Source: Chloroflexota bacterium | Lineage (GTDB): Bacteria; Chloroflexota; Dormibacteria; Dormibacterales; Dormibacteraceae | NCBI GenBank assembly: GCA_005882115.1 | Contig: VBEG01000040.1 | Coordinates: 1-34,593, forward strand | DNA length: 34,593 bases | Reading direction: 5' to 3' | Part shown: positions 18,969 through 27,375 of the stretch, one piece after another | Numbering within the stretch: position 1 is the first letter of the stretch | Layout: every line of letters begins with the position of its first letter | Position numbers and translations under genes: made by a program | Notes under the pieces: generated by a model | Told to the model about the DNA's origin: nothing | Seen by the model: the letters and a program-made list of their open reading frames with translations, nothing else | Databases searched by the model: none

Positions 18969-19478
18969 ATGGCGCGAAATCCGAACCAGCCGCCCAACTC
19001 CAAGATCGCGGTCTACCCCGGAAGCTTTGATCCGTTCACCAACGGCCACCTGGACGTGGTCGATCGCGCGCTTGCGATCTTCGACACGGTCATCGTCGCG
19101 GTCGCGGCGAATCCCGAAAAAAGGCAGCCGCTGTTCACCGTCGAGGAACGCCTCGACCTGATCCGCGCGTCGGTCACCGGACGCGATCGGGTCGAGGTCG
19201 CGAGCTACAGGGGGCTGACGGTCGAATACGCCCGCTCTCGCGGTGCAAGGACGCTGGTCAAGGGGCTACGCGCCTACTCGGACTTCGACGCCGAGCTCCA
19301 GCAGGCCCTCATGAACCGCAAGCTGGCGCCAGACGTCCACACCGTCTTCTTGATGTCCAGCTTCGCGCACATCTTCGTCTCGTCAAGTATCTTGAAGGAC
19401 ATCGCAAGCTATGGCGGCAAGGTCTCCGACCTGGTGCCGCCGCCAGTCGCGAGGGCGTTGAAGGAGAAGTTCAGATAA
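18969..19478 (+). CDS. coaD: Pantetheine-phosphate adenylyltransferase
   Basis: CoaD catalyses the penultimate step of coenzyme A synthesis, adenylating 4'-phosphopantetheine. The 169-aa protein has the nucleotidyltransferase T/HxGH motif in YPGSFDPFTNGHLDV, LVKGLRAYSDFDAELQQALM and the ATP-binding VSSSILKDIASYGG that replaces the usual ISS(S/T)xxKE. The first Arg of the RGLRA motif is Lys here, a mild change. An N-terminal extension of about ten polar residues precedes the first strand. It abuts rsmD, and its stop TAA overlaps an ATA codon that appears to start the next gene. Confidence 0.95.
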   Translation: MARNPNQPPNSKIAVYPGSFDPFTNGHLDVVDRALAIFDTVIVAVAANPEKRQPLFTVEERLDLIRASVTGRDRVEVASYRGLTVEYARSRGARTLVKGLRAYSDFDAELQQALMNRKLAPDVHTVFLMSSFAHIFVSSSILKDIASYGGKVSDLVPPPVARALKEKFR

Positions 19479-19960
19479 AGGTCGACGAGCTGCTGGACCG
19501 TATCGAGTACCTGATCCAGAACGCGCGCCATGTCCCGCTTTCGACTCAGGTCATGGTCAACGAGGACGAAATGATGGAGCTGATCGACCAGATCCGCTTC
19601 AACCTTCCTGACGAGATCAAGCAGGCGAACTGGACCGTCTCCGAGCAGCAGCGGATCATGACCGAGGCCCACGCCGAGGCTGCACGCACGATGTCGCGCG
19701 CCAACGAGAGGGCGGAGGAGACTGCTTCGGAGCACGAGATCCTGCGCCGCGCCGAGCGACACTCGGCGCAGGTCGTGAAGGACGCGCAAACGAAGGCGGA
19801 CCAGATCGTCCGCGACGCCGAGGGCTACGCGCTCGAGCAGCTGAAGCAGCTCGAAGCGCATCTCGGCCGCACGCTGCAGACGGTGCGGCGGGGGGTCGAG
19901 GCATTGCAGCAGAATCAGCCCGCCAACGGGGAGACCGCGGACCAGGCAGCCGAACGCTAG
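19475..19960 (+). CDS. DivIVA-like coiled-coil protein; probable ATA start overlapping the coaD stop
   Basis: The product is mainly a long charged coiled coil (about residues 60-145: RIMTEAHAEAARTMSRANER and on), resembling DivIVA/ATP-synthase-b-like hypothetical proteins encoded near coaD-rpmF in Firmicutes and Chloroflexota. Its N-terminus KVDELLDRIEYLIQNARHVP followed by LSTQVMVNEDEMMELID matches the family start. However, the first ATG/GTG/TTG in frame is ATG 19553, 26 codons into this conserved part, and none occurs upstream. The only candidate at the right place is ATA 19475, which overlaps the coaD stop as ATAA. AAGGAG (19461-19466) sits 8 nt before it, an ideal Shine-Dalgarno distance. 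From ATA the protein is 161 aa. A role in cell division or envelope scaffolding is only inferred. Confidence 0.7.
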   Translation: MKVDELLDRIEYLIQNARHVPLSTQVMVNEDEMMELIDQIRFNLPDEIKQANWTVSEQQRIMTEAHAEAARTMSRANERAEETASEHEILRRAERHSAQVVKDAQTKADQIVRDAEGYALEQLKQLEAHLGRTLQTVRRGVEALQQNQPANGETADQAAER

Positions 19961-19982: not shown

Positions 19983-20162
19983 ATGGCTCTCCCGAAGGTC
20001 AAGCTGTCCAAATCGAAGAAGGGCCGACGCCGCTCTCACCTAGCGCTCGCGCTGGTCCAGATCCAGCCGTGTCCGAACTGCAAGCGGCCGAAGCAGCCGC
20101 ACGCGATCTGCCGCAACTGCGGTTACTACGCCGGCCGCGAAGTCGTCAAAGCGAAGGAATAG
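19983..20162 (+). CDS. rpmF: 50S ribosomal protein bL32 (zinc-ribbon form)
   Basis: The 59-aa product MALPKVKLSKSKKGRRRSH then runs through a zinc ribbon with CPNC (30-33) and CRNC (43-46) and ends GREVVKAKE. This is a typical bL32 with all four zinc Cys. The N-terminal basic stretch and the central QIQPCPNCKRPKQPHAICR leave no doubt. It is preceded by TAAACT and the predicted transcript has almost no leader. Its stop TAG overlaps an ATA codon that marks the beginning of FabD homology. Confidence 0.95.
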   Translation: MALPKVKLSKSKKGRRRSHLALALVQIQPCPNCKRPKQPHAICRNCGYYAGREVVKAKE

Positions 20163-21079
20163 CGGCGCAGGTCGCGTTCCTGTTTCCAGGCCAGGGCTCG
20201 CAGCAGCCCGGCATGGGATCTGAGCTCCTCGAAGACGCGGAGGTCTCGGCGCTCTGCGATCGGTGCGCTGCCCAGGCCGGCATCGACCTCCGCCACCTGC
20301 TGACGACCGCCGGCGAGGATGAGCTCCGCCTCACGCAGAACGCGCAACCTGCCCTGTGCTTCATGGGCATCGGGCTGACGCGGTTGCTGCGCCGCCGCGG
20401 CGTCGATCCTTCCGCCGCCGCGGGCCACTCGGTCGGGGAATACGCGGCGCTCGCCGCCTCCGAAGCGGTCGATGCGGCCAGTGTGATCAAGGCGGTGGTT
20501 GAGCGCGGCAAGGCGATGGCCGACGCGGCGCCCGCCGGCACCAGCTCGATGGCGGCCGTGCTCGGCCTGGACGCCGAGAAGATCGAGGCGGCGCTCGCGG
20601 GCATCGATGGCGCGTGGCCCGCGAACTACAACACCCCCACCCAGACAGTCATCGCGGGCACGACCGCCGGCCTTGAGCGGGCGGCCCAGGCATTGCAGGC
20701 CGCCGGCGCCAAGCGCGTCATCCCGCTCAACGTCAGCGCCGCGTTTCACACACCACTGATGGCGCCCGCTGCCGAGCGCCTGCGAGCAGCCCTGGACAGG
20801 ATCGAATGGCGGACGCCCCGCATTCCGGTGATGGCGAACCTGACCGGGCGTCAGCATCAGGGCGGAGATCGCATCTCGCACGTCATGGAGATGCAGCTGC
20901 GCTCCCCGGTGCTCTGGGCAGCGTGCGTTGCGTCGCTGGTCGAGTTTAAGTGTGATGCGTTGGTCGAGGTCGGCCCGAAGCGAGCTCTCACGGGCATGCT
21001 GCGCGAGCTGGCGCCTGGCAAGGCGGCGCTTGCGGTGGGGACGCCGGCAGCGGTCCAGGAGTTGGCTATTCCAGTGTAG
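20159..21079 (+). CDS. fabD: Malonyl-CoA-ACP transacylase FabD; probable ATA start
   Basis: FabD loads malonyl groups on acyl carrier protein. The frame shows AFLFPGQGSQQPGMG at its beginning, QPALCFMGIG, the nucleophile motif GHSVGEYAALAA (Ser91), the catalytic His in SAAFHTPLM and VEVGPKRALTGML near the end. Counted from ATA 20159 it is 306 aa, the usual length. No ATG, GTG or TTG occurs where the family starts. The nearest in-frame canonical start (GTG 20069) would add 30 residues that are simply rpmF read in another frame. ATA 20159 overlaps the rpmF stop as ATAG; AAGGA abuts it, closer than ideal. The exact initiation codon is therefore uncertain though the gene is not. Confidence 0.93.
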   Translation: MAAQVAFLFPGQGSQQPGMGSELLEDAEVSALCDRCAAQAGIDLRHLLTTAGEDELRLTQNAQPALCFMGIGLTRLLRRRGVDPSAAAGHSVGEYAALAASEAVDAASVIKAVVERGKAMADAAPAGTSSMAAVLGLDAEKIEAALAGIDGAWPANYNTPTQTVIAGTTAGLERAAQALQAAGAKRVIPLNVSAAFHTPLMAPAAERLRAALDRIEWRTPRIPVMANLTGRQHQGGDRISHVMEMQLRSPVLWAACVASLVEFKCDALVEVGPKRALTGMLRELAPGKAALAVGTPAAVQELAIPV

Positions 21080-22062: not shown

Positions 22063-22311
22063 ATGGAAACTCAAAAGCTGAGCTTCGAGGACTTCAAGAA
22101 CATCATCGTCGAGCGCCTTGGATGCGAGCCCGAGCAGGTGACGATGGACGCTTCGTTCCAGGAGGACCTGAACGCCGACTCCCTCGACCTCGTCGAGCTG
22201 ATCTACGCGTTCGAAGAGAACACTGGTCTCGAGATCCCGGATGAGGACGCCGAAAAGATCACCACGGTCGGTCAGGCGTGGGAGTACATCCAGGAGAAGG
22301 CCGGCTCATAG
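22063..22311 (+). CDS. acpP: Acyl carrier protein
   Basis: The 82-aa acidic protein [20 protein letters not shown] has the 4'-phosphopantetheine site in [10 protein letters not shown] with Ser40, followed by [19 protein letters not shown] and VGQAWEYIQ. This is the fatty-acid synthesis carrier loaded by FabD. ATG 22063 fits the family N-terminus; the longer open frame upstream has no conservation. Its stop TAG overlaps an ATA codon (ATAG) at the probable start of rnc, with AGGAGAAGG just upstream, so the pair is translationally coupled. Confidence 0.96.
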
Positions 22312-23222
22312 CACAGGCTTCCGCTGCACCGCTCGCACAGTCTCTGCAGCTTCTCCAACAAAAGATCGGAATCCACTTTCGCGACCCCGGGCTGCTGCTC
22401 GAAGCGGTCACCCACAGCTCGTTCGCCAATGAATCGCCTTCGGTTTCGCCGCGCGACAACGAGCGCCTCGAGTACCTCGGCGACGCTGTCCTGCAGCTGA
22501 TCACGGCCGAGTACCTCTACAAGCATCACCCCGGCGCGACCGAGGGCGAGCTCACGCAAACGCGCTCGGCGATGGTCAACACGAACACCCTCGCCCAGCT
22601 CGCGGAGCAGCTCGACCTCGGCAGCTACCTCTACCTCGGGAAGGGCATCGCCAAAGGCGGCGGCCGTAGTCTGAAGTCGCTGCTCGCGAACGCCTTCGAG
22701 GCGGTGCTCGGCGCGGTCTTCCTCGACGCCGGGTACGACGCGGCCTACCACTACTACCTGGACCGTTATCGCACCCTGCCGTCGCCGGTGCGTGACGAGA
22801 ACTTCAAGGGCAAGCTCCAGCAGGTCGCACAGGAACGCTTCGGCGAGACGCCGGTGTACGACAGCGAAGGCGCGCGAGTAGGCAACAGGCGCGAGTACAC
22901 ATCGGTCGTGTTCGCCGGCGCGGAGCCGCTCGGCACGGGCCATGGCGCGACCAAGCAGGAGGCCGAGCAGGACGCGGCGCGAGCGGCGCTCGAGACCCTG
23001 GTCGCTTCCGTCGTGGAAACCTCGGCCACCAAGCAGGCGAAGCCACGGACCCGCCGCTCGCCGCGCAAGCCGCGTGAGCCGCGTGCGGAGCCACGGCGGT
23101 CGCTGCCGGCGGCGGAGCAACCCGAGCCTGCCGAGGTCGTCAGGCTGCATCCCCTGGGCGACAACCACGAGCCGCCGGCCACCGAACCTCGCAGCCGCCA
23201 GTTCGGCGAACCGATCGACTAA
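22308..23222 (+). CDS. rnc: Ribonuclease III with an extended basic C-terminal tail
   Basis: RNase III cuts double-stranded RNA during rRNA and mRNA processing. The nuclease domain has the signature [14 protein letters not shown] with acidic metal ligands, [15 protein letters not shown] and [20 protein letters not shown]. The dsRNA-binding domain includes [19 protein letters not shown] and [17 protein letters not shown]. About 65 extra residues follow, rich in Arg, Pro and Glu ([20 protein letters not shown]). Two starts compete: ATA 22308, overlapping the acpP stop as ATAG with GAAGG 7 nt upstream (304 aa), and GTG 22278 inside acpP without a clear ribosome binding site (314 aa). ATA is chosen by the ribosome binding site and by analogy to neighbours, with modest confidence. 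Confidence 0.93.
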
Positions 23223-26300: not shown

Positions 26301-26497
26301 TCGGCCAGATGGTGGCGCGGCTCGGAGCCGAGCGTCAGTTCCTCGTCATCACGCACAACCACGTGACGATGTCGTACGCGTCGACGCTGTACGGCATCCA
26401 CCTCGACGAGAGCGGCTCCTCGCACCTGGTGTCGGTCCGGCTCGACGATATCCGCAAGCCGGCGTCGCGCGCCGCGACCACAGCGCAAGCAGGCTGA
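23336..26497 (+). CDS. smc: Chromosome segregation protein SMC
   Basis: SMC forms the condensin ring that organises the chromosome. TTG 23336 gives the family start FLRSLQLLGFKTFARQTEI; the open frame begins further up (GTG 23288), but that stretch contains palindromes and is not conserved. Walker A GPNGSGKT is at 31-38, followed by IRGRKMEEVIYVGGERR. Long coiled coils flank a hinge (about residues 450-560). The C-terminal head has the signature LLSSGERSLAALALVLAL (LSSGE instead of LSGGE) and Walker B FTILDEVDAALDD. At 1053 aa it is shorter than the usual ~1180, mainly in the coiled coils. The stop TGA overlaps the CTG that begins FtsY homology. Confidence 0.93.
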   Translation: MFLRSLQLLGFKTFARQTEIQFDGGVTAIVGPNGSGKTNIVDAVKWVLGSGQARDIRGRKMEEVIYVGGERRSRASFAEVTMVFDNTARRLPVDYHEVAIKRRVERDGESDYFLNGTRVRRRDLIHLLASTGLTVDSYAIIDQHDIEHIVVCSPGERRQLLEEAAQVRGVKTRRQEAVAKLQELAANLLRLEDLKSELAPRLETLRGQAAAAREAAEAGARLELLRGSIVWEEWREARDAHRRASTQAQGLERRLIEAREQAKIAEEAFRVERAAMQTAQDRRLARQRTLGQLRLQLSDAEHRFQLGEERAANRRAVAEAARLSDTESRALLDAASALRRQLADELAQAERSIASPADVEPAPAEPDPAPVRDARRTAEDTRRAAVVAASSLASVRTRREFLEEQAERAAKAGAAAALLADAEAELRQAETRTRSAEDAAATLARLRAELDGIEALRPASPQGLRLGDIVTAAPGFEAALAAVLGPLVDATAAPDEEAAWRAISGAERQTTAVFPVESPPPEAGSLYEHVYVREGYEIIVRRLLGGVVVGREVTRDGVFRASGMLRAGADPRTALDARKAELQEEIRTHEQDAADASDATRVVQSAHARLAQLRSEAAAAPRPDEVARMLDTARAAERDAEHRLADLERAAGAAEERAGELGRQLDAQLREVAQQRAVLEQRQLERARWHDRIDSLRRQHSLVEEDVARLTAGSEERLRHLHEAEHAAVAAVEALPDLRASAHSAREALAAAEQDAPEDEAGMAESAKQLVALEEARIDARLRTGTLEGNLELITREAELLQARMDEIRSRMPDGVAPEEIPGGKSREREMRALERRLEEIGPTNALADSEFRELEERYRNLAEQLEDITAARTDLEDLIGKLREEEESRYEAVFGAVAANFHEYFSQLNPGGRATLRHADGDDGPRTGVEILVQPPRKRLQNVTLLSSGERSLAALALVLALDEVNPSPFTILDEVDAALDDANVDRFGQMVARLGAERQFLVITHNHVTMSYASTLYGIHLDESGSSHLVSVRLDDIRKPASRAATTAQAG

Positions 26498-27375
26498 GCC
26501 TCTGGGACCGCGTCGGTAGCCGGACTCGGAACGCCCTCGCGGCCGGACTTCGCGCGCTCAGTCCACCGCTGGCGGACGGGTACTACGCGGAGCTGGAGGA
26601 GGTGCTCATCGCAGCCGATGTCGGACCGGCGATGGCGTCCCGGATCGCATCGGGAATGAGGTCGAGCGCGCCGCGCACGAAAGATGAAGCGCTCGACGCG
26701 CTGGTTCGCGTCGCGGCGGGCCTCATGTCGAAGCAATCGCGCGAGTTAAATCTCGCCGGCAAGCCTGCATGCGTGCTTCTGTACGGGGTCAACGGCGCGG
26801 GCAAGACGACCACCGCGGGCAAGCTGGCCCACCGGCTCCGCGAGCAGGGAAGAAATCCCCTGGTGGTGGCGGCCGACACATACCGGGCGGCAGGCATCGA
26901 GCAGATGGTGATGTGGGCGGAACGGGCCGGGGTGCAGCACTTCGAGGGCACCCGCGGCGCCGATCCAGCGTCGGTCGTCTTCGAAGGCATCCAGGTCGCT
27001 GTCAAGCGCGGGCTTGATGTCGTCATCGCCGACACCGCGGGCCGGCTGCAGACGCAGCGGAATCTCCTGGAGGAGCTGGGCAAGATCGGGCGGGTCGCGA
27101 CCAAGGCGCTCGAAGGCGCCCCCTACGAATCGCTGCTGGTGCTCGACGGCGTGCTGGGACTGTCCAACCTCGTCCAGGCCCGAGAGTTCAACAAGGCGAT
27201 TCCCATGACCGGTCTCGCGCTGACCAAGCTCGACAGCAGCGCGAAGGGCGGCGCCGTGATCCCGATCGAGTCTGAGCTCAACGTGCCGGTCAAGCTGGCC
27301 GGCGTAGGCGAAGACATCGCCGACATCGAGCCATTCGACGCGGCGGCCTTCGTCCGTGCGATCTTCGAAGGATGA
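26494..27375 (+). CDS. ftsY: Signal recognition particle receptor FtsY; probable CTG start
   Basis: FtsY is the SRP receptor GTPase at the membrane. The NG domain is complete: N-domain helices SLWDRVGSRTRNALAAGLRA and YYAELEEVLIAADVG, G1 GVNGAGKTTT, AADTYRAAGIEQM, G3 DTAGRLQTQ, G4 TKLD and the closing GEDIADIEPFDA. The acidic N-terminal domain is absent. The first canonical in-frame start (GTG 26602) would remove the N-domain helices. CTG 26494 overlaps the smc stop as CTGA and gives 293 aa beginning M-SLWDRV, the expected start. Only a weak Shine-Dalgarno (AAGCAGG) precedes it. Gene identity is certain; the CTG start is a strong inference. Confidence 0.93.
   Translation: MSLWDRVGSRTRNALAAGLRALSPPLADGYYAELEEVLIAADVGPAMASRIASGMRSSAPRTKDEALDALVRVAAGLMSKQSRELNLAGKPACVLLYGVNGAGKTTTAGKLAHRLREQGRNPLVVAADTYRAAGIEQMVMWAERAGVQHFEGTRGADPASVVFEGIQVAVKRGLDVVIADTAGRLQTQRNLLEELGKIGRVATKALEGAPYESLLVLDGVLGLSNLVQAREFNKAIPMTGLALTKLDSSAKGGAVIPIESELNVPVKLAGVGEDIADIEPFDAAAFVRAIFEG

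Follow-up and report, generated by a model that had tools for sequence, protein, structure and literature searches.

infC is one of the genes known to start with codons other than AUG; in Escherichia coli it starts with AUU and is autoregulated by IF3. AUA starts have been treated as rare single cases (PMC13009471, PMC9094748). In Staphylococcus aureus, infC, ccpN, and citZ start with AUA and carry extended Shine-Dalgarno (SD) sequences, and AUA reporters of ccpN and citZ yield about 10-30% of AUG (PMC13009471). IF3 disfavours weak third-position pairs (PMC10158994). The coupling of overlapping gene pairs by termination-reinitiation is well described for ATGA and TGATG in a paper whose text does not mention ATA, ATAA, or ATAG (PMC6728339). 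We found no report on start codons in the Dormibacterota, a weak negative because the search covered open-licence literature only.

The coaD junction

The window, by which we mean the whole 34,593-nt stretch of DNA that was analyzed, is one contig of a 3.36-Mb genome in 147 contigs. Its close relatives are soil metagenome-assembled genomes (MAGs) named Chloroflexi bacterium or Candidatus Dormi(i)bacterota. The features at the end of coaD are as follows.

18969 to 19478, + strand: coaD, pantetheine-phosphate adenylyltransferase (TIGR01510, 190.5 bits; cut-off, 103.3)
19461 to 19466, + strand: SD sequence AAGGAG, with an 8-nt spacer (19467-19474) to the ATA; found in 26 of 26 ATA-clade genomes
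19475 to 19477, + strand: predicted AUA start codon, in the -1 frame relative to coaD, forming an ATAA overlap with the coaD stop
19475 to 19960, + strand: predicted gene for a 161-aa coiled-coil protein, loosely DivIVA/Wag31-like
19478 to 19552, + strand: codons 2-26, a conserved N-terminus 5' of ATG 19553 with a coding substitution pattern

The original prediction placed AAGGAG 8 nt before ATA 19475 and had this ATA overlap the coaD TAA. Direct reading of the sequence confirmed both points, as the TAA occupies 19476-19478 and shares bases with the ATA at 19475-19477. It had also held that no canonical start exists upstream in frame, and ATG, GTG, TTG, and CTG are indeed absent from the 444 nt of frame open upstream of ATA 19475. 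Downstream, the first in-frame ATG lies 78 nt, or 26 codons, further on at 19553; the N-terminus encoded from the ATA is IKVDELLDRIEYLIQNARHVPLSTQ.

The 161-aa product is predicted to form helices at residues 3-19, 30-43, and 46-146 and would consist mostly of one long helix (AlphaFold model; mean pLDDT of 81, pTM of 0.34). Its description as DivIVA-like holds in a loose sense: NCBIfam gave a match to Wag31 of 23.6 bits, far from the cut-off of 260 that would place it in the DivIVA/Wag31 family, and a Pfam search of the product gave no match.

The 4-nt stop/start overlap in the -1 frame is the geometry of a termination-reinitiation pair. Folding did not show unusually little structure in the junction RNA (z = 0.88). 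Because the downstream gene is in the -1 frame and shares bases with the coaD stop, ribosomes might instead slip by -1 as they finish coaD, which would yield a CoaD fusion without initiation at the ATA. We consider such frameshifting very unlikely, since AAGTTCAGATAAAG contains no slippery heptamer, relatives carry a canonical start codon there behind an identical SD, and several unrelated gene pairs have the SD and the ATA in common and nothing else in sequence.

The start codon among relatives

The gene downstream of coaD was found in 59 of the 61 genomes searched, all of which are MAGs of uncultured bacteria. After all loci had been oriented and distant relatives added, the codon aligned with ATA 19475 was read in 35 genomes of the window's GTDB family. 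ATA stands there in 28 of them, spanning 10 genera, ATG in three (G025 and G034 of g10, and G027), TTG in two (G020 and G032 of g5), and CTG in two (G029 and G036). In f3, a sister family of the same class, the aligned codon is ATG in all eight genomes read, and in families f2 and f4 the start falls on the aligned position or some codons 5' of it. The coaD stop is TAA where the overlapping codon is ATA and TGA where it is NTG. ATA-clade relatives have no conserved canonical start within or just upstream of codons 1-26.

That relatives carry ATG, TTG, or CTG at exactly the codon of the ATA strongly supports a start at 19475 and not at ATG 19553. ATG 19553 is the first canonical in-frame start in the window's genome and might for that reason be the true one, with the 26 codons before it left untranslated. 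The family alignment, run as a test of whether the protein normally starts there, went the opposite way. Codons 2-26 also carry the mark of normal coding constraint, with parsimony counts of 23 changes at first, 3 at second, and 83 at third codon positions in the main clade of 26 ATA genomes, and the structural model puts a helix at residues 3-19. A start at 19553 is therefore extremely improbable, and the earlier reading of these 26 codons as the conserved N-terminus of the family stands.

In the same 26-genome clade, the SD, its spacing, and the ATA are kept in every genome, and none of the three ATA bases has changed. This conservation and the TTG, CTG, or ATG of sister genera at the homologous codon go beyond coincidence. 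The coaD codon before the stop has undergone five changes at its first two bases (AGA, CGA, AAA, and ACA occur) while its final A is constant; an A precedes the stop in only ~15% of TAA-ending genes. A TGA in place of this TAA would leave the CoaD protein as it is and create ATG, and none was seen in this clade. The absence of change at the third base of the ATA is suggestive of selection against AUG, and suggestive only, because 7 of 25 conserved Glu/Lys/Gln codons in these genomes also show no third-position change (mean, 1.64 changes). Related genomes are not independent, and the parsimony minimum on the tree is only two changes between ATA and NTG; the evidence is thus one of long retention and not of many independent gains.

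All of these data come from MAGs, so that a true ATGA could in principle have been read as ATAA through an assembly or sequencing error. The same ATAA in 28 family genomes, with records from different projects, refutes this, and its probability is practically nil.

Predicted AUA and other non-AUG starts in the family

The original prediction singled out this junction as the cleanest case of AUA initiation in the window. The AUA start held up; it is not alone in the window, where fabD at 20159 and rnc at 22308 behave alike.

20159 to 21079, + strand: fabD-like acyltransferase gene (PF00698), second predicted ATA-start gene, its ATA overlapping the rpmF TAG
22308 to 23222, + strand: rnc, RNase III (PF14622/PF00636), third predicted ATA-start gene, its ATA overlapping the acpP TAG
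26494 to 27375, + strand: ftsY-like gene, probably starting at a CTG that overlaps the TGA upstream

For fabD, the predicted start is ATA in seven genomes (G000, G001, G002, G010, G015, G019, and G026), and the aligned codon is GTG or ATG in six congeners (G006, G008, G009, G011, G013, and G016). The rnc ATA at the acpP stop overlap is kept in most family genomes and has no conserved canonical alternative. An nrnA-like DHH/DHHA1 gene and a YegS/DAG-kinase gene have ATA with a GGAG-type SD in G003, G005, and G019, and the sequence around these starts has diverged among the three. infC has an ATA start in the window's genome and most of its genus (L255, G000:C88), which serves as a positive control for ATA starts, and ATC or ATT elsewhere in the family. 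In these five genes the ATA starts are conserved or recurrent and mostly overlap an upstream TAG. Besides the gene downstream of coaD, rnc and the nrnA-like and YegS/DAG-kinase genes make convincing candidates for ATA-start families.

Several other loci appear to lack a canonical start. The fabD genes of family f3 (L239-L245) have none, and ATC is the likely start codon. In G003 (L223), the conserved N-terminus of fabD is without an ATG, GTG, TTG, or CTG start, and an in-frame TAG stands directly before ACG GCG GCG. infC of family f3 probably starts with ACG. In the window, the ftsY-like gene and, on the - strand at about 28820, an inositol-monophosphatase-like gene have no canonical start, and both seem to use a CTG that overlaps the upstream TGA.

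The survey of stop-overlap junctions drew on three family members, each with a contig of ~220 kb (G003:C86, G019:C9, and G005:C2), and on their homologs; junctions were classed by the presence or absence of another ATG, GTG, or TTG within 20 codons. At junctions with no other start, the overlapping codon was ATG in 25 cases, CTG in 20, ATA in 19, TTG in 16, GTG in 15, GTA in 2, TTA in 1, and CTA in 0. Where another start was available, it was ATA in 11, GTA in 28, CTA in 24, and TTA in 10. The excess of ATA at junctions without another start was significant by sequence (Fisher P = 1.2e-9, with sequences that are not independent) and by gene family (P = 2.5e-4). Among ATA junctions that have no alternative start, 15 of 17 carry an SD match of at least 5 nt, versus 6 of 33 ATG junctions, a difference that is weaker when counted by family (P = 0.014). 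Of the seven ATA families surveyed, two lack an SD; these are doubtful and may be false. The survey also contains recurrent CTG starts, in 15 gene families and mostly without strong SDs. About five ATA starts were found among the 214-238 predicted genes of each contig, or roughly 2%.

A raw count of overlap tetranucleotides gave no excess of ATAR, which emerges only once junctions that offer a second canonical start are removed. A crude genome-wide test, based on SDs of at least 6 nt near the coding onset, found no ATA enrichment; this test is too weak because few genes here have such SDs.

The survey also bears on whether the ATA at 19475 is incidental, with initiation at the nearby AAG 19478 or GTC 19481. 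The AAR-GTC codons that follow the ATA are conserved as well, as such a start would have it. Against this, junctions without other starts strongly favour ATA over GTA, CTA, and TTA, sister genera change the ATA position itself to ATG, TTG, or CTG, and a start at GTC 19481 would need a spacer of 14 nt. Initiation at either codon is highly unlikely, even more so than frameshifting. As far as sequence comparison can tell, the AUA start is a habit of this Dormibacterota group and not an error, because ten genera have retained the AUA and its strong SD and no fewer than four further genes behave alike.

Decoding of AUA and comparison with known systems

Several genes that start with ATA might mean that AUA has been reassigned to Met in this lineage or is read by a special initiator. 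Internal ATA codons align with Ile at 67% of conserved positions and with Met at 4%, like ATC and ATT, which identifies internal AUA as an Ile codon. Also present in the genome are tilS and a CAU tRNA that looks ordinary, its anticodon arm (GGGCTCATAACCC) being of the initiator type. Reassignment or a special initiator thus has next to no probability, and acceptance of the ordinary fMet-tRNA on AUA is the simplest mechanism. A CAU tRNA with an initiator-type arm lies ~300 bp from tilS, beside a second CAU tRNA (L280, G000:C91). A tRNA-Sec with anticodon TCA is also predicted in the genome (L083 15696-15773).

The best explanation, which we hold to be highly probable, is that AUA 19475 is translated, with a 30S subunit placed by AAGGAG, the ordinary fMet-tRNA(CAU), and a protein that begins with Met. 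The strong SD at good spacing would set the subunit on the AUA. The subunit would probably be either that of the ribosome that has just terminated at the UAA of coaD or a fresh one loaded as the site is read; the overlap is what suggests coupling to coaD translation. The initiator tRNA would be accepted through an imperfect third-position pair, whose weakness the strength of the SD would offset, and fMet would presumably be residue 1. To judge by the S. aureus reporters and by infC, the yield is expected to be low compared with that of AUG and sensitive to IF3.

It is quite possible, though somewhat short of probable, that AUA is a regular, selected start in this Dormibacterota family, used by roughly 2% of genes in the surveyed contigs, mainly where coupled initiation is made possible by a strong SD together with a TAA or TAG that overlaps the start, and kept because a lower, IF3-sensitive yield sets the ratio of neighbouring housekeeping proteins. 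In combination with a strong SD and an overlapping stop, AUA can be a stable start codon, as this lineage illustrates, with AUA starts kept across ten genera in the housekeeping genes rnc, fabD, infC, the nrnA-like gene, and the gene downstream of coaD. Gene finders restricted to ATG, GTG, and TTG will truncate or miss such genes. A single junction also offers a natural series of ATA, ATG, TTG, and CTG alleles for asking what start-codon strength serves.

In keeping a conserved weak start codon though AUG is one mutation away, the junction resembles E. coli infC. The gene downstream of coaD is not IF3, however, and autoregulation therefore cannot explain its weak start; coupling or dosage is the more likely reason for its AUA. 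The closest known cases are infC, ccpN, and citZ of S. aureus, where AUA is likewise guided by a strong or extended SD and is conserved within the lineage (ccpN there), and infC starts with AUA in both. The differences are that the Dormibacterota belong to another phylum, that mostly different genes are concerned, that several genes are involved here and most overlap an upstream stop as ATAA or ATAG, and that these starts are predicted from sequence comparison, with reporter data in S. aureus for ccpN and citZ. With ATGA-type pairs (PMC6728339) the junction shares the 4-nt stop/start overlap in the -1 frame, but the overlap is ATAA or ATAG and the start AUA. The coaD junction combines an AUA start of the S. 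aureus type with a stop/start overlap of the ATGA type.
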